From NCBI GenBank assembly GCA_014654115.1, contig JACWDO010000010.1, forward strand, positions 1 to 36,127: 36,127 nucleotides of DNA. Reading direction: 5' to 3'. How positions within the stretch are numbered: position 1 is the first letter of the stretch; the number at the start of each line of letters is the position of its first letter. Below the pieces are notes generated by a model. It ran no database searches. It saw only the letters and a list, made by a program, of their open reading frames with translations, and had not been told where the DNA came from. Shown one piece after another: positions 19,345 through 33,804 of the stretch. A program made the position numbers and the translations under genes. The DNA comes from Pelagibacterales bacterium SAG-MED17. Lineage in GTDB: Bacteria; Pseudomonadota; Alphaproteobacteria; Pelagibacterales; Pelagibacteraceae.

Positions 19345-19572
19345 CTAGCTGGGATTTTCTTTTAGGAAATTAATATAATTTACTATTTCATCAAATTTTT
19401 CATCCTCAATATCTTTGTAACTTGCTTTAAATTTACTTTTGACACAAATTGCAACATGAGCGTAAGGATTTCTCCCTTTAGGATGATTAGGGTGATCTGG
19501 AAGTTGACCATGCAAATAATCGCCAGCTTCCTGAATAATTTTCCAGAGTTTACTTGCGTTTTCTTTGTTCAC
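19345..19572 (-). CDS. Small conserved hypothetical protein; anchor gene of the cassette array
   Basis: 75 residues from a GTG start (78 if the ATG at 19581 is used). I prefer the GTG because the three partial copies elsewhere in the window align only from this codon on, and one has ATG there. The protein opens NKENASKLWKIIQEAGDYL, then a His/Pro-rich loop (HPNHPKGRNPYAHVAICVK) and an acidic helix ending FLKENPS. I do not recognise the function. An AAGGA ribosome site lies about ten bases upstream and a repeat module (19586-19622) forms its promoter region. Its first 20 codons recur at 23600, 27317 and 28281. Confidence 0.75.
   Translation of the reverse strand: MNKENASKLWKIIQEAGDYLHGQLPDHPNHPKGRNPYAHVAICVKSKFKASYKDIEDEKFDEIVNYINFLKENPS
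19514..19572 (-). repeat. 59-bp repeat, copy A (5' end of intact anchor gene)
   Basis: First of four copies of a 59-bp sequence coding for the first 20 residues of the anchor protein. This is the only copy continuous with the rest of the gene. It differs from copy C at three bases and from copy B at four, all at third codon positions. Confidence 0.9.
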
Positions 19573-19734: not shown

Positions 19735-19965
19735 ATGAAAGAAGACAGAAATACAAAATTCAAAAAATTAGCTAATGCCAGGGTTAATAAAGCAATTAAA
19801 CTTATTAAATTAATTGGGAATTTATCTAACAAAAGTCATTATAATTATTCACGAAAACAAGCAAAACAAATTACTGATGCTCTTCATCAAGAATTAAATT
19901 TAGTTAAAAATAAATTCAACAATCCGTCTGGTGGAAGAGAGTCAAAGGAGTTTGAGATTGACTAA
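19735..19965 (+). CDS. Small basic helical protein, first gene of the GHKL operon
   Basis: 76 residues, rich in Lys and Asn and probably all helical (KKLANARVNKAIKLIKLIGN, then a second helix to about residue 60). No family recognised. No ribosome site precedes the ATG; the last operator palindrome lies directly against it. By size, charge and place it could be the operon's DNA-binding regulator, as in many phage-defence and toxin-antitoxin operons, but no helix-turn-helix is evident. It overlaps the next gene by a few bases. Confidence 0.55.
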   Translation: MKEDRNTKFKKLANARVNKAIKLIKLIGNLSNKSHYNYSRKQAKQITDALHQELNLVKNKFNNPSGGRESKEFEID

Positions 19966-20572
19966 GCCTAGAGACTCAATTGCTCATAAGGAAAGACATT
20001 TAATATTACTTATGGCTTGTTACGTTTTGGGAGGTTCAAAGAACACAATACACACTGAGGATATAATGAACCAAGCTTTTTTATGGAATACAGATAAGTT
20101 TGGTTGGAGAAAAAAAAAATATAAAAATTATCCAAACACTCTTCCACTATCACAAGGTTTGTTCAGGGCTAGAACACTAGGATTTTTAAAAGGTACATAT
20201 GATCAACAATATTTGTCTAAAGACGGTTGGACTCTAACTGATAAAGGTTTGGAAAAAGCCGATTCTTTATCAAGCCTTGTAAATGTCAAAACATCTAAAA
20301 AAACTTTATCTCAATTTCAAAAAAAGATTCTTTCAGAATTTAGAAAACACGAAAATTTTCATTTAGAGGGTAAAGATTTTACAATCTATCATCTTGCAGA
20401 TATCTTAAATATTTCTGTAAATAATTCCCCTCTTATGAATAGCTCCCTCATAAAAATTTATAGATGGGCAAAAATTTCAGATGATAAAGACGTTTTACAG
20501 TTAATTGAAAAAAAAATTAAAAAGCAAAAAAGTTTTAAGAAATATTTAAAGGAGGCATTAACAGAAATATGA
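19958..20572 (+). CDS. Predicted winged-helix-like protein of the GHKL operon
   Basis: I place the start at TTG 19958, seven bases after an AAAGGAG ribosome site, giving 204 residues; a GTG at 19931 without a good site would add nine. The first 120 residues (LILLMACYVLGG, NQAFLWNTDKFGW, SQGLFRARTLGFL, then GWTLTDKGLEKADSL) read like a winged-helix module with the terminal wing common in small-molecule- or defence-associated regulators. The C-terminal part is Lys-rich and helical. The stop overlaps the ATG of the ATPase gene. Specific family not recognised; a specificity or adaptor subunit for the ATPase is a plausible guess. Confidence 0.65.
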   Translation: MTKPRDSIAHKERHLILLMACYVLGGSKNTIHTEDIMNQAFLWNTDKFGWRKKKYKNYPNTLPLSQGLFRARTLGFLKGTYDQQYLSKDGWTLTDKGLEKADSLSSLVNVKTSKKTLSQFQKKILSEFRKHENFHLEGKDFTIYHLADILNISVNNSPLMNSSLIKIYRWAKISDDKDVLQLIEKKIKKQKSFKKYLKEALTEI

Positions 20573-22860
20573 AAAAAACACGTATTCCAGAGTGGAAAGA
20601 TGTAGAAGGATCTAAGAGAATTTCTCAACAGACAATGTTGAAATCAATAACAAGTTTAACCCAGGCTCTGGTTGAATTGATCACAAATGTAGATGATGCA
20701 TACGAAAGATTTAATAGTCCAAATAAGAAATATAGGGGAAATTGTGCAGTATTTTATGATCGTGGTGGGGAAACAAGGCCTACAACTATAAAAGTTTCTG
20801 ATAGAGCTGCAGGAATGGATAGTGAAAAACTTTACTCAGTTTTAAAAAAACATGGAGACAAAGTAAAGAGTGAGGGAGCTAGTCGAGGTTTTTTTGCAAG
20901 AGGACTTTTAGATACCTCATCAATAGCAGATGTTTTTATTCAAACAGTTAAAAATAAAAAAATTACTACAGCACAAATCAAACACCAGACAATGCAATAT
21001 AAAATAATTGATAAAGATGTGGCCTTAAATCAAGTAAACAAAACATTAGCAAAAAATATAGATGGATTTGATTATTTTAAAAATAAAAAACTTAGGGATG
21101 GAACAGAAATAATTTTAAAGATACCTCCTAAAATAATAAATATACCTCAAGTAAAAAGTTTAGTTAATAATTTAAAAACACAGTATCAATTAAGAAATAT
21201 TCTATCTGATGACAAGAATACAGAATTTAAAAATACCCTAGACCTAACTTTATTTGATAAAAAAAAAGAAAAATACCCAATATCTTTTACTTCCCCTAAG
21301 GCAGAATTAGTTCAAGAAAAAATTATTAATTTAGAACCTAGGGAGGGAAAAAAAGTTAAAGCAGTATTTAAGTTATTTAAAACCAAAAACCCAATGGATG
21401 AATTATCACAAGAGTATCGACATTATGGTATATTGGTCCAGGGAATTAAAGCAATATACGAAAATTCATTTTTAGAAGAGTCCTTAGATAATGAGTCTAT
21501 TTTAAAATCTTACTACGGAGTTTTAAAATGTGATTATATAGATGAATTGGCTCATGAATGGGAGAACAAAAGAGCTAAGGATCAAAAATATTCATCTGAC
21601 AACAGAATTCCCATCCACGATCAAGAAAGAAGAAAAGGTCTGTCTAAAGATCATCCATTTATTAAAAATCATTTATTTAAAGAACCTATTAAAATTTTAA
21701 ATGAAATAGTAATAAAACATAGAAAAGAAGTTGGTAGCGATATAACTGATAAAGAAGATTTAGAGCAACAAAAGAAGAAATTTGATATTTTACATCAAGA
21801 ACTTAAAGATTACGAAAATTTAAACGGAAAAAAATTACCCTATGGAAAATGGTTAGTATTTCCAAAAGCATTAAAAATAAAAGAGGGAGAAACATCATCA
21901 TTCAGAGTTTATACAAATTTAAGTGAAATAGATATTAAAGATGAAGTTGAAATAAAATTTCCTGATAAATACAAAAATTTTGTGCTTCCTAAACAATTAA
22001 AATCTAAATTTAAAATAAACCCCCTAAGAGAAGAACAATGTTATGCAACATTTGAAATTGAGGGTTTAAAAGAATGTGATTATTTTGATATTAATATAAT
22101 GTATAAAAATAGTTTAAAAACTCAAATAAGAGTTAGCGTTTACTTAGAAAAAAATCGCGAATTTAAAAAACCATTAGAGTTTGAGAAAGACACATATTTT
22201 GTTAAAGAAAATGCAAATAAAAGAACGGTGGTTTATGCTCAATATCCAGACTTTATCGATGAAAAAGAAATTAAATTAGACATATCTAATTCAAATCAAA
22301 AAGCATTAGGTTGCCAATCAAAAGTAACCCTTAAATATGTTGAGGGAACGAATTTTTTAAAAGGTGAGATAAAAGTAAGAGGAATTAAGCTTCAAGACAG
22401 TTCTATTATTTCTGTAAGTCACGATCCGTACACAGCATCTGCAAACGTGCATATTAAAAAAGATAAAGACGAGCAAGGTACAGAATATAAACCAATTTAT
22501 GTAACCCATTTCTTAGGAAAAAACATAAGAGCTGCATGGAGTCCAAAAAAAGAAAATATTCTGGAAATAACAACTGATCATCCTCTAGTTCGCTACTATC
22601 TTGGTGCCAAAGAACCTATAAATGGTAAGTTTCCTAATTTCAAAACACCTCAGTGGAAAATGTTTTTTAATGAAATTTTGGCGCAAGCATTTGCAGAAAA
22701 AATGGTTTCAATGAATTGTGCACAAAAACCAGAGTCCTATGAAACCTTAGCAGCAATAAATAAATCAGATATTAAAGAAACGATGGCTGTAGCTAATAAA
22801 TATTATACAAATGAATTCAACAAATTTATGAGCTTACTCCATAGTGAGAAAGTAACCTAA
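20569..22860 (+). CDS. GHKL (Hsp90/MORC-like) ATPase, large
   Basis: 763 residues. The N-terminal domain has the GHKL nucleotide site: N-box Glu36...Asn40...Asp43 in ALVELITNVDDAYE, G1 box VSDRAAGMD (Asp78, Gly82), and the glycine-rich lid SRGFFARGLLD at 105-115. The order and spacing fit Hsp90, MORC and MutL-type ATPases. The remaining 550 residues hold predicted beta-rich and Lys/Glu-rich segments with no nuclease motif that I can see. Proteins of this design recur in bacterial conflict systems, often with restriction-like or winged-helix partners. The gene is translation-coupled to the preceding one. This is the probable effector or motor of the island; the target is unknown. Confidence 0.8.
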   Translation: MKKTRIPEWKDVEGSKRISQQTMLKSITSLTQALVELITNVDDAYERFNSPNKKYRGNCAVFYDRGGETRPTTIKVSDRAAGMDSEKLYSVLKKHGDKVKSEGASRGFFARGLLDTSSIADVFIQTVKNKKITTAQIKHQTMQYKIIDKDVALNQVNKTLAKNIDGFDYFKNKKLRDGTEIILKIPPKIINIPQVKSLVNNLKTQYQLRNILSDDKNTEFKNTLDLTLFDKKKEKYPISFTSPKAELVQEKIINLEPREGKKVKAVFKLFKTKNPMDELSQEYRHYGILVQGIKAIYENSFLEESLDNESILKSYYGVLKCDYIDELAHEWENKRAKDQKYSSDNRIPIHDQERRKGLSKDHPFIKNHLFKEPIKILNEIVIKHRKEVGSDITDKEDLEQQKKKFDILHQELKDYENLNGKKLPYGKWLVFPKALKIKEGETSSFRVYTNLSEIDIKDEVEIKFPDKYKNFVLPKQLKSKFKINPLREEQCYATFEIEGLKECDYFDINIMYKNSLKTQIRVSVYLEKNREFKKPLEFEKDTYFVKENANKRTVVYAQYPDFIDEKEIKLDISNSNQKALGCQSKVTLKYVEGTNFLKGEIKVRGIKLQDSSIISVSHDPYTASANVHIKKDKDEQGTEYKPIYVTHFLGKNIRAAWSPKKENILEITTDHPLVRYYLGAKEPINGKFPNFKTPQWKMFFNEILAQAFAEKMVSMNCAQKPESYETLAAINKSDIKETMAVANKYYTNEFNKFMSLLHSEKVT

Positions 22861-22880
22861 ATTATTTATTATTTGAATTT

Positions 22881-23207
22881 ATGAAAGAAAAATTTATCGA
22901 TTTTGTTGAAAAATTTTACAAATTTATTGAGACTAAAGATTTTGATCCAGAAAATATTGATGACAGAAAAATTGTTCAAAAAAGAATTGATATGATGATG
23001 AATTGTAAATTAATGAAGTACTGGATCAAACAAAATATCTTATTTGGAAAAGATGAAATATTTACTAATGAAGTTTTAATGTATTTAATTGATTGTGCTA
23101 CAGATTTTCATGACGAAAAAGAATTCCTAAAAAAAATTAAACCTAACTCTAATTTATGGATATTAAATCTTGATATTAGAGTTTCAAAAGTTGTAAAAAA
23201 AAATTAA
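22881..23207 (+). CDS. Hypothetical protein, GHKL operon
   Basis: 108 residues, acidic and helical, beginning KEKFIDFVEKFYKFIE and containing FDPENIDDRKIVQKRIDMMM and a short hydrophobic VLMYLIDCATDF segment. No family recognised. It follows the ATPase by 20 bases and its stop is directly followed by the next ATG, so it belongs to the same transcript. Possibly a small partner of the ATPase. Confidence 0.6.
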   Translation: MKEKFIDFVEKFYKFIETKDFDPENIDDRKIVQKRIDMMMNCKLMKYWIKQNILFGKDEIFTNEVLMYLIDCATDFHDEKEFLKKIKPNSNLWILNLDIRVSKVVKKN

Positions 23208-23390
23208 ATGAAATTTAAATTACAAACAATAAAAGATTTTTTCAAATTAAAAGAAAAGAAAGGCTTGAAACCAATTTTTTTTGAAAAAATAGGAGATAAA
23301 AATACTTCTACAGATGATTTAGTTAAAAATTTAATTATGCAACTGGAAGCAAACGGTTTTAAAATAAAGAACAAAAAAAAAGAGATTTGA
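23208..23390 (+). CDS. Hypothetical small basic protein, last gene of the GHKL operon
   Basis: 60 residues, Lys-rich (KFKLQTIKDFFKLKEKKG and a terminal NKKKEI). Not recognised. The ATG directly abuts the preceding stop. Its own TGA lies inside the right 37-bp direct repeat, so the coding sequence runs exactly to the island boundary, which may mean the end of the gene was set by integration. Confidence 0.5.
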   Translation: MKFKLQTIKDFFKLKEKKGLKPIFFEKIGDKNTSTDDLVKNLIMQLEANGFKIKNKKKEI

Positions 23391-23423
23391 TTTATCTCTA
23401 AATGATCTAGTCTATGATCTAGT
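23387..23423. repeat. 37-bp direct repeat, right flank of the GHKL operon island (attR-like)
   Basis: 34 of 37 bases identical to 19586-19622. It carries TTTATCTC followed by GATCTAG-tctat-GATCTAG. It overlaps the stop codon of the last operon gene and opens repeat unit B. Confidence 0.75.
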
Positions 23424-23490
23424 TTATTGTTTAAATTGATGAGTCTTTAAGCGATTTATTTTTAATGAAATTTAAATAGTCGGTATAACT

Positions 23491-23530
23491 AGTACGAGGT
23501 AGTGTGAGCTAGTGTGAAGTAGTGTGTACC
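23491..23530. repeat. 10-bp iterons of unit B
   Basis: Four head-to-tail blocks: AGTACGAGGT, AGTGTGAGCT, AGTGTGAAGT, AGTGTGTACC. The period is exactly one helical turn. The corresponding positions in units C, D and E also show 10-base periodicity but with different sequences. Confidence 0.7.
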
Positions 23531-23531
23531 T

Positions 23532-23600
23532 CTAACGCCGTAAATAATCGCCAGCTTCCTGTATCATTTTCCACAGTTTACTTGCGTTTTCTTTATTCAC
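23532..23600 (-). pseudogene. Truncated anchor-gene copy B (22 codons)
   Basis: GTG start then NKENASKLWKMIQEAGDYL, as in the intact gene, followed by RR and a stop. It carries the same promoter arrangement (GAGATAAA upstream) as the intact gene. It is either a stranded 5' end left by integration or a 22-residue peptide gene; copies C and D stop at the same codon. Confidence 0.65.
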
Positions 23601-23735
23601 ATTCCCCCAATTCTTGTTTTATCTCTTTTGTTTCTAGTTAGTTTCTAGTTATCCTATAAAATCCTACATTTTAATAAATGAAGATTTTACCATGAACTGG
23701 ACAATTTTTTTAAAACTTTAACATGAAAGTTTATG

Positions 23736-25643: not shown

Positions 25644-26078
25644 TTAAAATAGGTTTAAAGACCAATTTGTCACTGCAATAACCACAAGATAACGTGCCAC
25701 TTTCCCTATAGCAACCAGGACTAAAAAATCTAAGAAACGAATTCGCATAGTACCCGCAACAAAAGTTAGTGGATCTCCAACTATAGGCAACCAAGCAAAC
25801 AATAAAGACCATTTACCATACTTCAAAAACCATTTGGAAGATCGCTTCATTTGCTTTTGATTAAATGGAAACCATTTTTTGGACTCAAATTTTCTAGAAT
25901 AAATTCCCAAAAACCAATTAAAAGATGAACCAAGTATGTTACCCAAGCTTGCTACAAGCAGTAATATGAAATTATTATAAGATTGAACAGCCATAAGTCC
26001 TGCAAGCGTAATCTCTGATGATAAGGGTAAAATAGTAGCTGCTAAAAAAGAAACGACAAAAAGAGTTATATAACTCAC
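25644..26078 (-). CDS. YqaA-like membrane protein (VTT/SNARE-associated family)
   Basis: 144 residues from a GTG start. Membrane segments, the LPLSSEITLAGLMA opening, GNILGSSFNWFLG and the GDPLTFVAGTMRI segment identify the YqaA branch of the VTT (DedA-like) family. These small membrane proteins are thought to move lipids or ions, with no firm assignment. The GTG overlaps the stop of a 27-codon signal-peptide-like frame (ATGTGA), so translation is probably coupled to it. Confidence 0.82.
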   Translation of the reverse strand: MSYITLFVVSFLAATILPLSSEITLAGLMAVQSYNNFILLLVASLGNILGSSFNWFLGIYSRKFESKKWFPFNQKQMKRSSKWFLKYGKWSLLFAWLPIVGDPLTFVAGTMRIRFLDFLVLVAIGKVARYLVVIAVTNWSLNLF

Positions 26079-26158
26079 ATTTCAAACTCAAGAAGGTTTG
26101 CATTAGCATTGCTACAAACTAACAAACTAAGAACTATTATCCCTAAAAGTTTTTTCAT
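26075..26158 (-). CDS. Orphan signal-peptide-like mini frame, 27 codons
   Basis: Translates to KKLLGIIVLSLLVCSNANAN after the initiator and then LLEFEM and a stop: a complete Sec signal peptide with almost no mature protein. Its start is 4 bases after the lyase-like gene and its stop overlaps the YqaA-like start. The DNA closely matches the first 45 bases of the neighbouring secreted protein gene at 27047. It could be a leader for translational coupling or the stub of a lost secreted protein. Confidence 0.45.
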   Translation of the reverse strand: MKKLLGIIVLSLLVCSNANANLLEFEM

Positions 26159-26162
26159 TTTG

Positions 26163-27047
26163 TTAATCAACTGGAATATTGTTTTTAATATCAACATCAC
26201 TGTAACTTTTGCCAAATCTTATCTCATCAAACAACATTACAGTTGTTGGAATTTTATTTTCCCATTTATATTTGAAAGGTTTTATTATATTTTTTTGACC
26301 ACTGGGTTGTGTCATTGTCTTCATATTTTTTGGTTTATTTTTATTTATATGAGTTAAGTAATCGCCCAATCTGAATTTATAAATACCGTATCGCATATTA
26401 ATTTGCTGCCTATTACTGCTCCATCCGTGACTTTTAGATTCTTTGATATGTTTGCTGTTTACAAATGGAATATAATGTGTGCACTCATCAATTTGCTTAC
26501 CATTCCACCACAGTTCAAAATATTTTTCACCTTTAATTCTTTCTCTGCTATAATTTGCTTTAATTATAAAATCGTTCCAAGTTCCTTTTACAAATTTACT
26601 TACTTCACACCTCTTGTAGTGACCTAATCTTAATTGAAAACCAGATCCTTGAGTTGAAACTATCCAAAGTGGCATATCAACACCCATCATTTTTGACTGG
26701 AACATTGACATCTTTGAAGCCACATAATCATATCCAAACTCATCAGGGATATATAAACTTAACGAATAATATACAGGATCTTTAAATTTTTTACTTGAAT
26801 AATGTAATTTTTTTAAATGTCTTTCTGTTCTATGAGCACCCCATTTACAATCTTGTTTTTTACATTCCCCATGTCTTATTTCAAACTTTTGAGCTGACTT
26901 ACCTGCACGAACATTATCAGTTATTATTTCAAAATGTTTTTTTATATCCATATGATGCCACTTTGTTTTTTTAACTGTAACTGGTTCTGCATAACCTAAA
27001 CTACAAACAAATAAACTTAGTATCACGATCTCTAAAAGTTTTTTCAT
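26163..27047 (-). CDS. Secreted polysaccharide-lyase-like protein (heparin lyase I fold)
   Basis: 294 residues. The signal peptide begins KKLLEIVILSLFVCSLGYAE. The mature part follows the PF14099 (heparin lyase I / alginate-lyase-like jelly roll) pattern: RHGECKKQDCKWGAHRTER, YYSLSLYIPDEF, GTWNDFIIKANYS, FELWWNGKQI, and INMRYGIYKFRLGDYL near the C-terminus. It may cleave an acidic polysaccharide in the periplasm or outside the cell; substrate unknown. In a genome this small, a polysaccharide lyase is an accessory trait, consistent with its position in the cassette array. A GAGATAAA module (27108-27143) lies about 60 bases before the ATG. Confidence 0.7.
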   Translation of the reverse strand: MKKLLEIVILSLFVCSLGYAEPVTVKKTKWHHMDIKKHFEIITDNVRAGKSAQKFEIRHGECKKQDCKWGAHRTERHLKKLHYSSKKFKDPVYYSLSLYIPDEFGYDYVASKMSMFQSKMMGVDMPLWIVSTQGSGFQLRLGHYKRCEVSKFVKGTWNDFIIKANYSRERIKGEKYFELWWNGKQIDECTHYIPFVNSKHIKESKSHGWSSNRQQINMRYGIYKFRLGDYLTHINKNKPKNMKTMTQPSGQKNIIKPFKYKWENKIPTTVMLFDEIRFGKSYSDVDIKNNIPVD

Positions 27048-27107
27048 AATCCAAGATTATCAAATCTCGAACCATGAGTCTATTTGCTTTAAAAAATAGC
27101 TATTTGA

Positions 27108-27362
27108 TTTATCTCAAATAACACTAGAATTCCGACTAGAATTTTTTCTAATTAGACTTATATTTTAAGAATTTATTCTATGTTAATTTTTGATTACTTA
27201 AATAAGTACTGTAGAATAATGCAGCTTAATGCAGGATAGGTTAAACTGCTAATCCCCCAAATAATCGCCAGCTTCCTGAATAATTTTCCAGAGTTTACTT
27301 GCATTCTCTTTATTCACACCTACTAAAATCTTAAATTAACCCTTAATTATCCTGTTATCCGA
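27108..27362. repeat. Array unit C (decayed composite repeat)
   Basis: Fills most of the gene-free stretch 27048-27391. It has TTTATCTC (27108), the direct pair ACTAGAATT-ccg-ACTAGAATT (27123-27143), 10-base iterons with a TAATGCAG core (about 27211-27240), the 59-bp anchor-gene start (27259-27317) and a diverged right part with TTATCC repeats (27347-27360). The AAATTGATGAG block is only faintly visible, so this unit is older or recombined. Confidence 0.65.
27249..27317 (-). pseudogene. Truncated anchor-gene copy C (22 codons)
   Basis: GTG start, NKENASKLWKIIQEAGDYL, then GD and a stop. All three differences from the intact gene within the shared 59 bases are synonymous. Same stop position as copies B and D. 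Confidence 0.65.
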
Positions 27363-27391
27363 TAAAAAATACTTTAAACCTAGAAGTTATT

Positions 27392-28033
27392 TTAATTCAA
27401 TAATTTTTTTTTAGCTTTTTCAAACTCTTCCTTAGACAATGCACCTGAGTCTAAAAGTTCTTTTAGCTCTTTCAATTTTTTAACTATATCTTTATCAGCT
27501 TCAGTCTCTTTTTTTGTTTTTGTTTCTTTTTTTTCAACCTCTTTTTGTGTGCTGTTTGATGAAGATGTCTTATTATCAAAAAATCCAAGCTCAGTTAATA
27601 AAGTTATAGTCTTTCCTGACCTTATATCTTTTCTTTTAAGCCTTCTCTTTTTTCTATTAGTTCCGTTATCCCAGACTATTCTATAGCCATTTGCAAATAA
27701 ATAGCATTCCTGTCCTGATTTTTTTTTACAATCTCCGACAGCCATACCTGCATAATGTTGATTATCTACTTGAGTCACTCTTAAAGGATGTTTTATAAAA
27801 GAGTAGAATGCCCCATCTACTGATATTGCCATGAGACCTGGCTTCCAAGCTTCTTTTTGTTTTTTAGCATAAACACCATTTTTACCTCCACTAAAAAAGT
27901 ATTCTATAACATTTGCAGTATGTTCAGTTACTTTTAAAGGGCCGGTACCTTTTTTGTAGCCAGTTGATACTCCTGCAAGTGAATTACCACACAAAAATAA
28001 ACATAGAAACATGATGCCCAAAAATCTCTTCAT
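27392..28033 (-). CDS. Secreted protein with C-terminal SHOCT domain
   Basis: 213 residues. The signal peptide KRFLGIMFLCLFLCGNSLAG resembles the other MKKLLG starts nearby. A middle region with two Cys (DCKKKSGQECYLFANGYRIVW) may form a disulfide. After a low-complexity Lys/Glu/Thr linker (about 150-180), the last 30 residues read as a SHOCT motif (KKLKELKELLDSGALSKEEF then KAKKKLL), a short helical oligomerisation or anchoring module. Function unknown. It is alone between units C and D, i.e. a one-gene cassette, and a repeat-module promoter (28074-28106) precedes it. Confidence 0.7.
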   Translation of the reverse strand: MKRFLGIMFLCLFLCGNSLAGVSTGYKKGTGPLKVTEHTANVIEYFFSGGKNGVYAKKQKEAWKPGLMAISVDGAFYSFIKHPLRVTQVDNQHYAGMAVGDCKKKSGQECYLFANGYRIVWDNGTNRKKRRLKRKDIRSGKTITLLTELGFFDNKTSSSNSTQKEVEKKETKTKKETEADKDIVKKLKELKELLDSGALSKEEFEKAKKKLLN

Positions 28034-28073
28034 GATAAAAAAGTATCAAAAAGTTATTAATTTTACTATTTAA

Positions 28074-28347
28074 TTTATTCTTTATTATCGAGTTATAAAT
28101 CGAGTTTTTAATTAAATTGATGAGTCTTTAAGCGATTTATTTTAAGCTAACTTTTTAGGTTCCGCATAAGTACATAAGAATTGTGTGGGTTAATTCGGAT
28201 TAATTTGAACCTCTAATCCCGTAAATAATCGCCAGCTTCCTGTATCATTTTCCACAGTTTACTTGCGTTTTCTTTATTCATACGACTTCAAACCTTGATT
28301 TATCTAAATCTGGTATAGTCTGCGGTATAGTATCCTATAAAATCCTA
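28074..28347. repeat. Array unit D (about 275 bp composite repeat)
   Basis: Occupies the gene-free stretch 28034-28334. Order: TTTATTC (28074) and the pair ATCGAGTT-ataa-ATCGAGTT (28087-28106); AAATTGATGAGTCTTTAAGC block (28114-28144), the same as in unit B; 10-base periodic stretch (about 28165-28210); the 59-bp anchor-gene start (28223-28281); TTTATCTA (28299) with the pair GGTATAG-tctgc-GGTATAG (28312-28330); and TATCCTATAAAATCCTA (28331-28347), identical to unit B. Confidence 0.75.
28213..28281 (-). pseudogene. Truncated anchor-gene copy D (22 codons)
   Basis: ATG start, NKENASKLWKMIQEAGDYL, then RD and a stop. Its 59-bp core differs from copy B only in the last base (ATG versus GTG start). 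A TCAAGG ribosome-like site and GATAAA lie upstream as in the intact gene. Confidence 0.65.
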
Positions 28348-28382
28348 TAACCTAGAATCAAAATCTCTAAATGTTTTTTCAT
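28335..28382 (-). pseudogene. Signal-peptide fragment cut by unit D
   Basis: Starts as an ATGA overlap with the monooxygenase-like stop and reads KKHLEILILG, then enters the TATCCTATAAAATCCTA end of unit D and stops. The DNA matches the starts of the secreted genes at 27047 and 28033, so a signal-peptide gene appears to have been truncated exactly at the repeat junction. Confidence 0.5.
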
Positions 28383-28771
28383 TCATTAAAAATTTTTTCT
28401 CTAACATATCCTACTTCAGTAGTTTTAAAATGCTTGAAGGGTACATTTGTATCTTCAATTGCTTTAATAGTCTCTTCTGTAATATTCCCGTAAACTTCTA
28501 TTTCAAATCTGTCAGCAATCTCTTGATGCTTTTCAACATAGGCTTGAACAGGGGGATTATTAAGGTGATGCACCATAGCTTCACTGTTTCGGTAGACTTC
28601 ACTCCATGTAAATTCTAAAGGATCTGTTGGATCTTGATCAAAAGTATGAATAAGCATATCTGGTTCTGACTCTTTAACGGCATCATCTGCTTCTTTTGCT
28701 ATCTTAAGATATTCTTCAACCTTACCTTCTTTAACACGTATTCTAGCTATTAAAATAAAAGGATTAGACAT
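28379..28771 (-). CDS. Antibiotic-biosynthesis-monooxygenase (ABM/YgiN-like) domain protein
   Basis: 130 residues with the ferredoxin-like ABM fold pattern: FILIARIRVKEGKVEEYLKI at the N-terminus, EPDMLIHTFDQDP, FTWSEVYRNSEAMVHHLN and a helix LADRFEIEVYGN-like region. Cofactor-free monooxygenases of this fold oxidise quinols or polyketide-like rings; many members are uncharacterised. At 130 residues it carries a C-terminal extension beyond the basic domain. It is the most downstream complete gene of cargo 4 and may act with the methyltransferase/dioxygenase operon, though it could have its own promoter. Confidence 0.75.
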   Translation of the reverse strand: MSNPFILIARIRVKEGKVEEYLKIAKEADDAVKESEPDMLIHTFDQDPTDPLEFTWSEVYRNSEAMVHHLNNPPVQAYVEKHQEIADRFEIEVYGNITEETIKAIEDTNVPFKHFKTTEVGYVREKIFNE

Positions 28772-28815
28772 TGACTAAAATTTATATACATATTTTTAAT
28801 TATTAATCAATAGTC

Positions 28816-28869
28816 TCAAAAGCTAGTACTAAAAAAACCAAGAACCACGATCCCTAAAAGTTTTTTCAC
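28816..28869 (-). pseudogene. Orphan signal-peptide stub, 17 codons
   Basis: GTG start directly after the stop of the 40-residue gene, reading KKLLGIVVLGFFSTSF and stop. The first 30 bases match those of 26158 and 27047. Probably the remains of a secreted-protein gene or a recombination seed. Confidence 0.45.
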
Positions 28870-28992
28870 TTAAAATCCGCCTCGCCAATTATTTTTAGAT
28901 TTGAAGTCTTTTTCTTCTTGTTTGGAGGTAGGTCTAAATAAATAAAAACCTACAACAACAATAACGAATATACCTAAAATAATTTCAATCAT
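28870..28992 (-). CDS. Small single-helix membrane protein, 40 residues
   Basis: An ATG frame 7 bases downstream of the ABC permease stop: one hydrophobic helix (IEIILGIFVIVVVGFYLF) followed by a charged tail (RPTSKQEEKDFKSKNNWRGG). The architecture, N-terminal anchor with soluble tail, is that of small accessory proteins of membrane complexes. Close spacing suggests co-transcription with the transporter. No family recognised. Confidence 0.5.
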   Translation of the reverse strand: MIEIILGIFVIVVVGFYLFRPTSKQEEKDFKSKNNWRGGF

Positions 28993-28999
28993 GCAAAGG

Positions 29000-29767
29000 C
29001 TAGGATTTAATTTTGTAACCTTTTTTGAGCAAAACAGATACGACTGTTACACAAATTATTAAAAAAAATACCATTGAGCTAATGCTGATCCAAATATTGA
29101 AATCAGAAACTCCATAGAACGCATATCTTAAACCATTAATTAAATATACTACCGGATTAAAATAAGTGACAGTTTGCCAGAACTCTGGCAACATATCTAA
29201 AGAATATAAACTTCCCCCCAAAAAAACCATAGGTGTAACCACTAATGTTGGAACAATTGACATTTGCTCAAAGTTAGAACTCATCAAGCCAATTAAAAAA
29301 CCAAATAAAGCAAAGGTAAAAGCCACTAGAACCAATAAAAAAATCATTAACAATGGATACATCACTTGAACTTCTACAAAAAAAGTAGCCGTAATAAAAA
29401 TTACTACACCTACTAATAAAGTTTTAGTCGCACCTGCTCCAACAAATGCAAGGACAATTTCAAATGTAGAAATTGGAGCTGCTAAAATTTCATACATGGT
29501 ACCGTTAAATTTTGGAAAAAAAATACCAAATGATGTGTTACTAATTGATTGGGTTAGCAACGTAAGCATTAATAAACCTGGAACAATAAAAGATCCATAA
29601 CTGATACCATCAATATTCTCCACATAACCTCCTATCACTGAACCAAAAACGATAAAGTATAAAGAGGTTGAAAGCACTGGTGAAAAAAGAGATTGCAACA
29701 AAGTTCTTTTAAAACGATCCATTTCATGCAGATACATGGCCCTAAATGCATAATAATTAAATTTCAT
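29000..29767 (-). CDS. ABC-2 type transporter permease
   Basis: 255 residues, six predicted membrane segments, of the ABC-2 family (DrrB/NodJ-like). The opening [36 protein letters not shown], and the [20 protein letters not shown] segment before the last helices are family landmarks. It overlaps the ATPase gene by 11 bases and would form the export channel with it. In cargo 4, downstream of two methyltransferases and a dioxygenase, export of a small product of that operon is the simplest reading; a housekeeping lipid or saccharide role cannot be excluded. Confidence 0.85.
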
Positions 29768-30692
29768 TATTCTCCTTTACTAAATTAACAAATATCTTCT
29801 CTAAAGTAGTTTGTTCAGTTTTTAAATCCTGTAGCTTTAAACCTGCATCTTTTAAATCTTTAAGTAAGTTAGTTATCCCAGTACTTTCTGAATTGACATC
29901 ATAAGTGTATTCTACTGTTTTGTTATCTTTACCTATTTCTAAATTATATTTACCTAAACTATCAGGAATTTCACTAATTTCACTTTGAAGATTTACACTT
30001 AACTTTTTCTGACCCATCTTTTTTAATAATTCTTTTGTTTCATCAATAACAATTATTTCCCCTTGATTAATAACTGCTACCCTATCTGCTATTGCTTCTG
30101 CTTCTTCAATATAATGGGTGGTTAGAATAATCGTTACTCCAGTTTTTCTTAAATCTTCAACTACTTTCCACATATCTCTTCTTAACTCAACATCAACTCC
30201 TGCTGTTGGTTCATCTAAAAATAATATTGAAGGTTCATGAGATAAAGCTTTTGCAATTAAAACTCTCCTCTTCATTCCACCAGATAATTGTCTTAATCTT
30301 AGGTCTTTTTTATCCCACATACTTAAATCTTTTAAAATTTTTTCTATATGTTTTGGGTTAGGTTTTTTCCCATTTAACCCTCTTGAATAAGAGACATTGT
30401 TAAAAACAGTTTCAAATAATTCTAATGTTAACTCTTGAGGGACTAATCCAATTTTTGAACGTGTCTCTCGATAATCTTCAATAATATCAAAATTTTCAAC
30501 AGTTACTTTTCCAGACGAAGGTGTAACAATACCACATATAATACTGATTAAAGTTGTCTTACCAGCACCATTTGGTCCTAGGAGAGCTATAATCTCTCCT
30601 TTTTTTATTTCTAAGTTAACTTTTTTTAAAGCTTCAAATCCGTTATCATAAACCTTTGAAAGATTGTTAATGGATATTTGATTAGCAGACAT
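29757..30692 (-). CDS. ABC exporter ATP-binding protein
   Basis: 311 residues. Walker [10 protein letters not shown] near 40, Q-loop VPQELTL, signature LSGGMKRR, Walker [13 protein letters not shown] and the switch His in TTHYIEEAE are all intact. The C-terminal extension after residue 220 is the DrrA/NodI-type domain that ends [11 protein letters not shown]. It energises the ABC-2 permease encoded next to it. A 40-base gap separates it from the EgtD-like gene upstream, short enough for one transcript. Confidence 0.88.
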
Positions 30693-30732
30693 GTAGTTGG
30701 GTATATAGAGACATTTTACTCAATTACAATAT

Positions 30733-31662
30733 CTAGCCTAATTTATTCAAATGAAGACAATGAACACTAAAAAGTTTTTTATCATCAACCCAAGTTTTCT
30801 TAATTCTCCATCCAGCTTCACTAGTTAAGTTTTTGAAGGATCTAATCGTGTATTTATGAGAATTCTCAGTGTGAATCTCTTCATTTTTTTTAATTAAATA
30901 TTTTGATCCATTGATTTTAATATTGTTGTTTTTTTTAGATTTTAATCTCATCTCAATTCTTTTTTTTGGTTTATTATAAATTGCTAAATGTTTGTAGGAA
31001 TTTAAGTTTATATCTCCACCCAATTCGGTGTTTATTCTTTGTAAAATGTTTTTGTTGAACTTTGCAGTTATGCCTTTTTTATCATCATAAGCAGAAATTA
31101 GAGTTGGGATATCTTTAACTAAGTCGACGCCAATGATAATTTTTTTTGCTTTAAATTTTGATTTAAGCATTTTTAAAAATTTGACAGCATCTTTTTTTTC
31201 AAAATTCCCAAGAGTTGATCCAGGAAAAAAAATAATTATATTTTCTGATGATTTAATCTTAAAAGGTAGTTTATTATTTTTTGAAAAGTCATATCCTTTT
31301 GGAGTAATAGCTAATTTTGGAAATTTTTTTTTAAAACCGTGTGATAACTTTGTTATATAATCTTCAGAAATATCTAAGGGTATATATTTTTTTGGCTTAT
31401 CTAAGCTGCTTAGGAAAATAGCTATTTTTTTGATGTCTCCAGCGCCAGGTTCAATTAAAACCGCACTTTTGCCTATTTCATTAGCAATTTCGGTTTTATT
31501 ATCTTTTAAAATTTTTCTTTCAGTTCGTGTTGGGTAATATTCTTCTAACCTAGTAATTTGTTCAAAAAGCTTTGATCCATAAAAGTCATAAAACCATTTA
31601 GAACTTAGCTTCTTATTTTTCTTACTTAATCCGAGACTTACTTCTTGTAAAAATGTTTTCAT
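30733..31662 (-). CDS. EgtD-like L-histidine N-alpha-methyltransferase
   Basis: 309 residues, PF10017 family. LFEQITRLEEYYPTRTE at 32-48 is the family signature; the SAM loop is EPGAGD at 71-76 with acidic Asp97. Residues I align with the histidine-binding set of mycobacterial EgtD (Tyr56, Asn166, Tyr206, Met252, Glu282, Ser284) are all kept as Tyr43, Asn153, Tyr192, Met238, Glu266 and Ser268. It should therefore make hercynine (N-alpha-trimethylhistidine) or a close analogue. No EgtB sulfur-insertion partner is in the window, so the product is probably not ergothioneine unless EgtB lies elsewhere. The ATG overlaps the preceding methyltransferase stop. Confidence 0.85.
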   Translation of the reverse strand: MKTFLQEVSLGLSKKNKKLSSKWFYDFYGSKLFEQITRLEEYYPTRTERKILKDNKTEIANEIGKSAVLIEPGAGDIKKIAIFLSSLDKPKKYIPLDISEDYITKLSHGFKKKFPKLAITPKGYDFSKNNKLPFKIKSSENIIIFFPGSTLGNFEKKDAVKFLKMLKSKFKAKKIIIGVDLVKDIPTLISAYDDKKGITAKFNKNILQRINTELGGDINLNSYKHLAIYNKPKKRIEMRLKSKKNNNIKINGSKYLIKKNEEIHTENSHKYTIRSFKNLTSEAGWRIKKTWVDDKKLFSVHCLHLNKLG

Positions 31663-32579
31663 TTTATATCTGGCATTACTAAAAGACGACTAATTGGCAT
31701 TGAAAATTGTCCTTTTCTTTCAGAATGACTGCTCCCATTTGATATTGCTAGTATGTTGGATAGACTTGCAATCATTGATTTTCTTTTATCTGGCTTTAAT
31801 ACAAATGCAGCATAAAAAAACCCTGCCGCAATTTCAGCTACTTGAGTAACAGGTCCTTCCATAGATACAACATTTGTTTCGATAGTCACTTTTGCTTCTG
31901 GAAAAGCCTTACGTGCAAGATTACTCAGGCTTTCAGATCCTCTTATCCTTGGATCACCTAAATCAATCTTTCCATAACTAGGCATTTCCTCTTGCACATA
32001 ACTATAAATTAAATCGTGTACTTCTTTGTAGCCTGGTGCTGAATTCATTGGCCCATCAACTAACGCTGCAAACTGACCCTTAGAGGTTAAAATTCTTCTA
32101 ACTTCATCTAAAACAGGAGCTATTGGGTCCATCAATGTTAAAGCCCAATGACACAACACTATATCGACAGAGTTATCATTGATTGCTGTCAAATTTTGTG
32201 CTTTTGATTCAATAAGATTAACTCCACTGTTTAAAAGAAGATTCTTAGCTAATCCTAGTTCTTCAGGACACATATCTATACCATTTAAATTTAAATTTTT
32301 ATTGCGATCAAATAAGATTTTTAATAATGGCCCTGATCCACATGCAAGATCTAATACATTTAAACTTTCATTATCAGGCACAAGTTCAGCTAGCCATTCA
32401 TAACTATTACGTCCAGTTTCGTCACGACAGGTAGTTGCACACGCTTCAGTAAATCCTGTATGTTCTTGATGGACAGTTCTTAAATGATCAACTAAAGCAT
32501 CACTATCAGGATGTAGATTGCGAGTAAGACTATCAGTCCAGTTAGAATTAAGTCCCATCTGACTATTTATCTCTTTCAT
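31659..32579 (-). CDS. Class I SAM-dependent methyltransferase
   Basis: 306 residues. The SAM motif LNVLDLACGSGPLLKIL is at about 73-89, the acidic residue follows in LNGIDMCPEE, and VDIVLCHWALTLMDP is motif II/III. An N-terminal extension (HTGFTEACATTCRDETGR) precedes the fold and contains two Cys. The substrate is not readable. It overlaps both the dioxygenase and EgtD-like genes by 4 bases, so the three are translated together and probably act on one molecule. Base composition is somewhat less AT-rich than in the EgtD-like gene beside it. Confidence 0.82.
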   Translation of the reverse strand: MKEINSQMGLNSNWTDSLTRNLHPDSDALVDHLRTVHQEHTGFTEACATTCRDETGRNSYEWLAELVPDNESLNVLDLACGSGPLLKILFDRNKNLNLNGIDMCPEELGLAKNLLLNSGVNLIESKAQNLTAINDNSVDIVLCHWALTLMDPIAPVLDEVRRILTSKGQFAALVDGPMNSAPGYKEVHDLIYSYVQEEMPSYGKIDLGDPRIRGSESLSNLARKAFPEAKVTIETNVVSMEGPVTQVAEIAAGFFYAAFVLKPDKRKSMIASLSNILAISNGSSHSERKGQFSMPISRLLVMPDIK

Positions 32580-33574
32580 GATTTATCTTTAACTGGCCAA
32601 CAAATTGGATTTAGTGAACTAGCAGCTACGTCCCCTGGTTTGACGTTTGGCATAAATTTTTGCCAGTCACCAGAGACCATTGTAGGTGAATTAACTACTC
32701 TCGCTCCGTCGCGGTAATAAGTGTTGGCTAGAGCCACCCGGCTACGATTAGTACGATTGCGTGAAGCGGTATGAAAATTTAAATTATGATGAAAGCTAAC
32801 TTCGCCTAGTTCAAATGGAGTTTCATTCACACTTACATTATTTTTTGAAAAAACGTCTGAGACACCACGGTCATATCCAGTGCCAGTCTTTTTAAAAGTA
32901 ACAGCGTTAACTAATTTGTGGACGTCGAGTGGATAAGCAAAAGAGAGTGGTCCCATCTCAAGAGGAATCGGCTGTGCTGGTGCCCAAGCAGTGAGTACGT
33001 CATTAGTATCCAGGGGAAAATGATGATCATCAAAGTGCCATGGGGTACGACCACAACCAGCTTGTTTAGCTAGTACATTGTCATGGTAAAGTCTTACAGC
33101 TGGTACTCCAAGAAGATCAGCTGAAATTTGCCCCAGGCGTGGTGATAATACGTAAGCACGAAGTAGTGCGTTGTCAGGCCAAATCATTTCAAGACTAAGG
33201 AAACGTTCATGTGCTCCATTATCTGGGTCAACCTTAAACTCTTCCTTTAATAGATTAATTAACTCAGCTCTAAGTTTTAGAACAGCTCCAGGTGAAAAAA
33301 CTCTTTTTAGTTTTATGAAACCATTTTTTTTAAAAAAGTCAATTTGATCGTTAGTTAACTGGTATGGCTTAGCTAATTCTGAGATAACTTCATCATCACT
33401 AGGTATTGCAATATCTGGTAAAGGATCAGCATTAATGATTTCATCCTCTTTTACGTCATTATCTGCAAGACTAACGTACCAGTCCCACCAGGCCTGATTA
33501 TCCTTATCCCATGGTTTACTAACATCTGCATCATCAGATATTTTAGAATTTAAATGGTTATCGGGATTATTCAT
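32576..33574 (-). CDS. Phytanoyl-CoA dioxygenase (PhyH) family Fe(II)/2-oxoglutarate oxygenase
   Basis: 332 residues. Iron ligands His180 and Asp182 (PWHFDDHHFP) and distal His268 (NFHTASRNRTNRSR) are present, with Arg279 placed to bind 2-oxoglutarate. A 70-residue acidic N-terminal extension precedes the PhyH fold. Such enzymes hydroxylate or halogenate small molecules. As first gene of an operon with a methyltransferase and an EgtD-like enzyme, a hydroxylated, multiply methylated amino acid (for example a histidine betaine) is the most likely product; this is inference. A GGGATAAA module of unit E lies about 65 bases before the ATG. Confidence 0.85.
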   Translation of the reverse strand: MNNPDNHLNSKISDDADVSKPWDKDNQAWWDWYVSLADNDVKEDEIINADPLPDIAIPSDDEVISELAKPYQLTNDQIDFFKKNGFIKLKRVFSPGAVLKLRAELINLLKEEFKVDPDNGAHERFLSLEMIWPDNALLRAYVLSPRLGQISADLLGVPAVRLYHDNVLAKQAGCGRTPWHFDDHHFPLDTNDVLTAWAPAQPIPLEMGPLSFAYPLDVHKLVNAVTFKKTGTGYDRGVSDVFSKNNVSVNETPFELGEVSFHHNLNFHTASRNRTNRSRVALANTYYRDGARVVNSPTMVSGDWQKFMPNVKPGDVAASSLNPICWPVKDKS

Positions 33575-33637
33575 TTGAAGTGTTCTTATAGTTTTATTTT
33601 GTATTAGAAAGAGCGCGTTTTGACATGGGTTATTTGA

Positions 33638-33760
33638 TTTATCCCAAAAAGTTCTAGCCTTTCTTAAATTGGTGAGACTTTAAGTGATTTATTTTTTTTT
33701 GAGAGTTAAATGCTCCATATTACTAGGGTAAATTAATTTAGATTAGTTTGTGTTAGGTTG
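33638..33760. repeat. Array unit E, right end of the array (no anchor-gene copy)
   Basis: TTTATCCC (33638), an imperfect GTTCTAG region, the AAATTGGTGAGACTTTAAGT variant of the conserved block (33666-33698), and 10-base periodic repeats with an ATTAGTTT core (33731-33760). It keeps the first half of the unit B/D order, but the 59-bp anchor start is missing. It separates cargo 4 from the core gene yajQ and so marks the right border. Confidence 0.65.
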
Positions 33761-33804
33761 TTCAGCTAAATCCAAAATTACCGACCTATAAACTTAAATT
33801 TGGA

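Follow-up and report, generated by a model that had tools for sequence, protein, structure and literature searches.

Introduction

For type III effectors, terminal reassortment and orphan N-termini were reportedly described by Stavrinides, Ma and Guttman in 2006. Lambdoid phages provide examples of boundary sequences at the junctions of mosaic modules, and integron cassettes are small genes on the same strand, carried in arrays, bounded by repeated sites and provided with a terminal site; the core motifs of attC are RYYYAAC and GTTRRRY. Here we analyze a block of about 40 bases, coding for what looks like the start of a signal peptide (SP), in a stretch of 36,127 nucleotides from Pelagibacterales bacterium SAG-MED17 (contig JACWDO010000010.1), hereafter the window. 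According to our analysis, this SP block is probably a shared recombination joint in the genomic islands of SAR11, at which secreted-protein genes would be exchanged by homologous recombination on short homology. The comparison of sequences shows that the DNA block is shared, that exchange takes place at it with crossovers within, and that relatives differ in their SP-bounded cassettes.

Passages in two papers describe terminal reassortment of type III effectors (PMC5675462, PMC3726527), and one of them calls it a non-homologous process (PMC3726527). The SAR11 block resembles this system in combining a terminal secretion signal with unrelated cargos and in having orphan termini: one signal stands before 74 non-homologous cargo families, and 86 of 245 sites are orphans. 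In contrast to type III effectors, the SAR11 signal looks Sec-type rather than type III (no search for type III genes was made); furthermore, the shared DNA spans only about 40 bases, the host is a streamlined marine bacterium and in some cassettes the block stands at both ends. For phages with mosaic modules, short conserved sequences at the module boundaries were proposed, in the passage concerned, to guide homologous recombination (PMC3029335). The SAR11 block is likewise a short conserved sequence at module junctions, but it lies in bacterial islands, inside a coding region, and serves 74 sampled cargo families.

Same-strand arrays of small genes between repeated sites also recall integrons; in the part of the literature concerned, the hypervariable regions of SAR11 are reported to lack attC sites and a clear integron signature (PMC2217521). 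Tycheposons and other integrative islands adjoin tRNA genes, according to a passage in PMC10872708, and SAR11 islands are found next to tRNA genes as well. Unlike in tycheposons, the window segments between copies of a repeat called unit D measure 1–4 kb, one target is a small protein gene, at its 5' end, and Pfam recognized no recombinase in the sequenced 61% of the window's genome. Overall, the SAR11 system appears to work like effector terminal reassortment combined with boundary-sequence mosaicism, yet it looks Sec-type, is barely seen in viral collections and lacks the integron motif pair. No earlier description of such a block was found in a limited survey covering parts of the SAR11, Pelagibacter and pelagiphage literature, and the peptide string MKKLLGI returned no paper from literature text.

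SAR11 bacteria rank among the ocean's most abundant organisms and have small, streamlined genomes. If our interpretation is true, the in-frame trading of genes via one 40-base coding block would explain a large and fast-changing pool of secreted and surface proteins in a streamlined genome, and the block could be used as a DNA tag for counting this pool in metagenomes.

The Signal-Peptide Block and Its Distribution

The initial annotation of the window had reported five near-identical signal-peptide starts within 2.8 kb. All five are present at the places given there, on the minus strand, and near-identity holds for four of them: against a 29-base degenerate pattern, the starts at 26158 and 28869 have no mismatch, that at 27047 has two and that at 28382 has three, while the number of near-identical starts expected by chance was zero (100 dinucleotide shuffles of the window). 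The fifth start, at 28033 (MKRFLGIMFLCLFLCGNSLA), is a diverged copy that is off the family consensus at 7 of 29 bases and joined to the others at 67–71% identity only. The absence of a protein behind three starts was also borne out, as the stubs at 28869, 28382 and 26158 encode 17, 15 and 27 residues; the last is coupled to a VTT-domain (YqaA-like) gene, as noted there, by a 4-base overlap (26075–26078). A loosened pattern found five copies in the window's genome (905 kb, 61% complete), four of them in the window and one at contig 12:56527, with the diverged copy at 28033 outside these five.

The consensus of the block, ATGAAAAAACTTTTAGGGATCGTGGTTCTGGGTTTGTTG, encodes MKKLLGIVVLGLL. In an alignment of 232 copies, agreement is 56% at the base preceding the ATG and mostly lower further upstream (near background), whereas identity is high to about +28 and decays past about +40. 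The first 29 positions of this profile were shaped by how the loci were found, but the upstream background, the later decay and the following codon test were not. A pattern with synonymous codons left free gave 35 hits in 23 of 81 genomes of the genus, and the reversed control gave none. Rare codons recurred in these 35 hits (GGG in 33, ATC in 32 and CTG in 29), while their background shares among synonymous codons in 683 open reading frames (ORFs) of the fetched loci were 6, 8.5 and 2.1%, respectively. Since the rare codons recur even when synonymous codons are left free, the block is conserved as DNA, beyond the encoded peptide.

The block is a repeat of SAR11 (Pelagibacter). The DNA pattern had copies in 22 of 61 genomes, comprising 22/37 of the own genus and 0/24 of other genera; the codon-free pattern occurred in 29 of 197 genomes of the order (26/117 of the own genus, 3/27 of other genera of the family and 0/53 of the other family), so that by this pattern most genomes lack the block even within the genus. 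In GTDB contigs the exact degenerate pattern was found in at least 119 stretches, and all 80 of those listed are titled Pelagibacteraceae, Pelagibacter, Pelagibacterales or alphaproteobacterial. Of the first 29 loci, 10 match any of 13 window proteins, and a 40-residue gene adjoining the block recurs only in L034, L041 and L057; the block is thus not confined to a single site on the chromosome. A phage origin was not supported: the exact-pattern scan of IMG/VR yielded one island-like contig only (L196), which carries an integrase, no phage record matched one probed cargo and no viral contig encoded a relative of another. The densest array seen, on contig 26 of one genome (L257), has eleven SP-block copies in 10.7 kb towards a tRNA-Thr, counted with up to 6 mismatches and including one copy without an ATG.

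Genes Carried Behind the Block

At the 245 distinct sites, 149 copies head an ORF of at least 50 residues (a cargo), 86 head a shorter one (orphans) and the remaining 10 are truncated at a contig end. Grouping the 149 cargos by similarity (blastp, E ≤ 1e-4) gave 74 families, of which 55 have a single member. By a loose pattern, 129 of the encoded signals are signal peptidase I-like, 17 lipobox-like and 3 neither; they look like Sec signal peptides, and the cargos are presumably exported. A scan of 73 cargo representatives gave matches to 12 Pfam families, including those of polysaccharide lyase (3 members), prolyl oligopeptidase (2), trypsin-like, autotransporter and MORN proteins. Nine PHROG families were matched by one cargo member each, one of these families being named a protease, and PADLOC returned three models with one member each (two RT-Protease_XI and one PDC-M35A). 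A defense role was rejected, with no PADLOC match for eight proteins, seven of them from the window. On the 3' side, another block follows within 60 bases in 45 cargos and a tRNA or attachment (att) motif within 250 bases in 49, neither is found in 50 and 5 are near an end.

Exchange at the Block

Homology between relatives ends at the block more often than expected by chance. Considering the 230 sites with full flanks, only 7 of 129 pairs with homologous upstream DNA reaching the block stay homologous downstream, and in the reverse direction 11 of 144 downstream-homologous pairs stay homologous upstream. The corresponding values at 877 ordinary ORF starts of the same loci, a control that mixes in core genes, were 1256/1531 and, from the other side, 1258/1389; none of these pair counts are independent. 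Over 154 non-redundant loci, 109 of 414 internal alignment ends lie in the SP block on both sides, against an occupancy of 3.0% (50 of 259 when counted by distinct places), and ordinary ORF starts, with an occupancy of 4.4%, received 7 of 414.

Loci grouped by a common upstream gene illustrate this. The 40-residue gene of the window has six different continuations in seven loci, and behind a gene ending in YTNH there are six different cargos. Downstream of the stop of the 40-residue gene, 30 loci continue with the SP block (5, window included), with the arms of island ends but no SP (4), with a tRNA-Val/tRNA-Asp pair called by ARAGORN (9) or with other DNA (12). A match between L221 and the window (96% over 1657 bases) ends, from the other side, at +33 of the block at 28869, and the match to L258 (95.2% over 1008 bases) starts exactly at 26158, where the start codon of the stub has its A. 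Both observations on which the initial annotation had made its proposal depend were thus obtained: orphans recur in relatives (86/245 sites) and breakpoints fall on the block.

Six cassette families align between loci with the SP block bounding both ends in both loci. The largest, of about 872 bases, encodes a 279-residue protein of the prolyl-oligopeptidase family (PF00326) and was found in 13 loci, or 11 after overlaps were merged. Another is the lyase cassette of the window, which aligns with L113 at 83% over 902 nucleotides with SP at both ends. In L258 the island leader runs directly into the stub with its VTT-domain gene, and the joint lacks the 889-base lyase cassette.

Two other schemes were rejected. 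Ordinary neighbouring genes are also tight (180 of 333 within −5 to +4), so the 5' edge of the block needs no special insertion mechanism at stop codons. A plain two-sided replacement of cargo between SP and att was seen in only 10 of 91 testable pairs, in which homology resumed within 60 bases after both stops; since homology rarely resumes after the cargo, most exchanges are not simple two-sided swaps.

Crossovers Inside the Block

The left half of the block follows the ancestry of the upstream DNA and the right half that of the cargo. When copies share upstream DNA and differ in cargo, their left halves are alike beyond chance (10 of 2000 permutations as low). When they share cargo and differ upstream, the right halves are alike (0/2000) and the left halves are not (885/2000). 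The shift of ancestry is gradual along the block, with no fixed crossover base seen; such a gradient is what short-homology exchange would leave and fits it better than a site-specific recombinase. The suggestion that signal-peptide DNA acts as short homology for swapping secreted cargos, made in the initial annotation, gains support from the breakpoints and from this ancestry switch inside the block.

We favor, with reasonable though not full confidence, the SP block as a joint for short-homology exchange, and offer the following scheme. Secreted-protein genes would be carried as an SP block plus cargo, with the next SP block often directly behind the stop. Recombination between two SP blocks could then join any upstream segment to any cargo, restoring both the frame and the secretion signal, and an orphan, whether the final block in an array or what remains once a cargo is lost, would be able to accept new cargo. 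The exchange might be carried out by general or annealing-type homologous recombination (RecA or a phage-type annealase), and orphans may act as acceptor sites.

Several results weigh against this interpretation. The contrast in retained homology shrinks under a control matched for island neighbourhood: ordinary starts within 750, 1500 and 2500 bases of the block keep downstream homology in 9/27, 53/163 (resting on 305 starts within 1.5 kb) and 345/536 pairs and, from the other side, in 4/13, 43/76 and 373/436. Because ordinary starts near the block also lose homology often, mosaicism is a general property of the islands, above which the block nonetheless stands out. Past the cargo, homology does not resume within 350 bases in 72 of the 91 testable pairs sharing upstream DNA. 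A weak association with the upstream DNA is also seen for the right half (85/2000 permutations). The L258 leader matches the DNA before the lyase in the window over only 17 bases beyond the block, and its remainder fits better elsewhere (window 23385–23539, at 85%). At completeness of at least 90%, only a minority of genomes carry the block, 29/149 by the codon-free pattern and 3/18 by the DNA pattern. Its conservation could also reflect recent spread or a role at the RNA level, and 59 of the 86 orphans have neither an arm motif nor a recognized target nearby. Finally, no recombining enzyme was identified and no intermediate was seen.

Alternative Explanations

The best-surviving alternative, which we regard as rather unlikely, is a dedicated site-specific recombinase that recognizes the SP block and moves integron-like cassettes whose site doubles as signal-peptide coding sequence. 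The strict DNA conservation including rare codons would fit it, as would the SP-bounded cassettes and arrays (60 of the 63 loci with more than one copy have all of them in the same orientation) and the continued conservation of orphan blocks. The gradual change of ancestry, rather than one at a fixed base, argues against it. Within 45 bases from the ATG of the 245 copies, RYYYAAC was found in none, GTTRRRY in 57 and both together in none. No integron integrase was found: the window's genome has no match to the tyrosine recombinase family PF00589, although it is only 61% complete; 8 of 12 genomes searched do have one, which could be chromosomal Xer. It is likewise rather unlikely that a true secretome cassette system exists here, with the block as both export signal and dedicated recombination site, orphans as docking sites and a recombinase serving them.

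It is still less probable that the starts are plain scars or duplications in mosaic islands, their shared sequence being due to descent and to constraint on the amino acids and playing no part in exchange. Scars of lost secreted genes, the second suggestion of the initial annotation, do form part of the story: the 86 of 245 sites without a protein of at least 50 residues agree with it, as does the mosaic character of the neighbouring island DNA. Orphans are slightly less conserved than gene-heading copies (mean mismatches of 1.43 vs. 1.10 and of 2.6 vs. 2.0, both sets having been found by similarity to the block), and yet nearly as conserved, which is where this suggestion falls short as a full account. 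Nor would scars alone explain 74 cargo families behind one DNA block with fixed rare codons, breakpoints that concentrate on the block and not on ordinary starts, or two halves that differ in ancestry.

In some orphans the block is the terminal piece of an island, since 20 of the 86 run, by a loose motif, straight into island-end arms; these lead to a tRNA-Leu motif (8), to a small gene here called the NKEN gene (7) or to no recognized target (5). Overall, 23 orphans are near att or a tRNA, 57 are not and 6 are near an end, compared with 143 of 940 ordinary ORFs of the same loci.

We consider it very unlikely that the block is kept for an RNA-level or translational role (e.g., a post-transcriptional signal near the start codon), with exchange as a side effect: the block begins at the ATG, keeps rare codons and is in many copies coupled to an upstream stop, though ordinary neighbours are tight too, and an RNA role alone does not explain the breakpoints. 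An artefact of single-cell amplification or assembly at short repeats is scarcely credible, for although many source records bear isolate names in the single-cell style (AG-..., SAG, SCGC), copies also occur in four single-contig genomes of 99–100% estimated completeness (two, two and four copies in G106, G110 and G233, of 1.20–1.31 Mb, and one in the stretch examined of G111, of 1.46 Mb), and one 872-base cassette recurs in 11 distinct loci.

Unit D and Island Integration

The initial annotation had placed the end of unit D at one of the stubs. The two do lie side by side, as the stub at 28382 leads into an arm-like block and unit D begins 80 bases past the stub start, but unit D belongs to island integration, a process separate from SP-block exchange. 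It corresponds to the 5' end of the 75-residue NKEN gene (19345–19572); the repeats, at 28166, 27202 and 23502, are preceded by an arm-like block. L218 joins window position 28221 directly to 19610, the two sharing 99 bases, and thus has the site in its empty form, lacking the 8.6 kb in between. Unit D is therefore an att-like repeat of integrated islands; the target is directly repeated at both ends and empty in a relative, and it is a protein gene, not a tRNA. The arm motif was rejected as a marker of the genus, being too variable (8 of 61 genomes).

In the viral contig L196, a 557-residue integrase recognized by PHROG, but not by Pfam, sits at the NKEN target; a relative was found in 1 of 151 genomes, and tblastn of this integrase against the loci gave no match. 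An apparent NKEN 3' end, recognized by eye, is inverted between an SP stub and the integrase (L196:280–600). Near the ends of SP cargos in L052, L053 and L078, a motif of the tRNA-Thr(TGT) 3' half stands ahead of an intact copy, as expected from serial integration at that tRNA.

Features of the Window

Coordinates are collected in Table 1.

Table 1. Features of the window around the signal-peptide blocks and unit D copies.
Feature	Position	Strand	Remarks
Orphan signal-peptide block 1	28816..28869	-	GTG start, 17 codons; abuts stop of 40-residue gene
40-residue gene, upstream of joint	28870..28992	-	
ABM-domain gene (PF03992)	28379..28771	-	Between two SP blocks, not SP-fused
Orphan signal-peptide block 2	28335..28382	-	15 codons; ATGA overlap with ABM gene
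Unit D copy 1	28166..28302	-	NKEN-gene 5' end and flank; att-like direct repeat, island boundary
SHOCT-domain gene (PF09851)	27392..28033	-	Predicted secreted; diverged signal-peptide block
Unit D copy 2	27202..27338	-	
SP-lyase cassette, 889 bases	26159..27047	-	SP block at gene start, another directly behind
Orphan signal-peptide block 3	26075..26158	-	27 codons; 4-base overlap with VTT-domain gene
VTT-domain (YqaA-like) membrane gene (PF09335)	25644..26078	-	Coupled to stub 3
Unit D copy 3 with arms	23502..23624	-	
Complete NKEN gene, 75 residues	19345..19572	-	Target whose 5' end recurs as unit D

Orphan block 2 has the recurrent form of an SP followed by TATAGGATTTTATAGGAT arms, and stub 3 is also present in L258. 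The gene of the cassette (26163–27047) is polysaccharide-lyase-like (PF14099). The NKEN gene had no match in Pfam, PADLOC or PHROG. Between two unit D copies, a plus-strand cluster (19931–23390) looks like a cargo module; its 763-residue protein, which has a 213-residue neighbour, weakly matches a GHKL-type ATPase (below the Pfam cut-off), and PADLOC gave no match. About 4.8 kb with an ABC transporter and other genes (28993–33804) separates the 40-residue gene from yajQ in the window, whereas in L041 the yajQ gene nearly abuts it.

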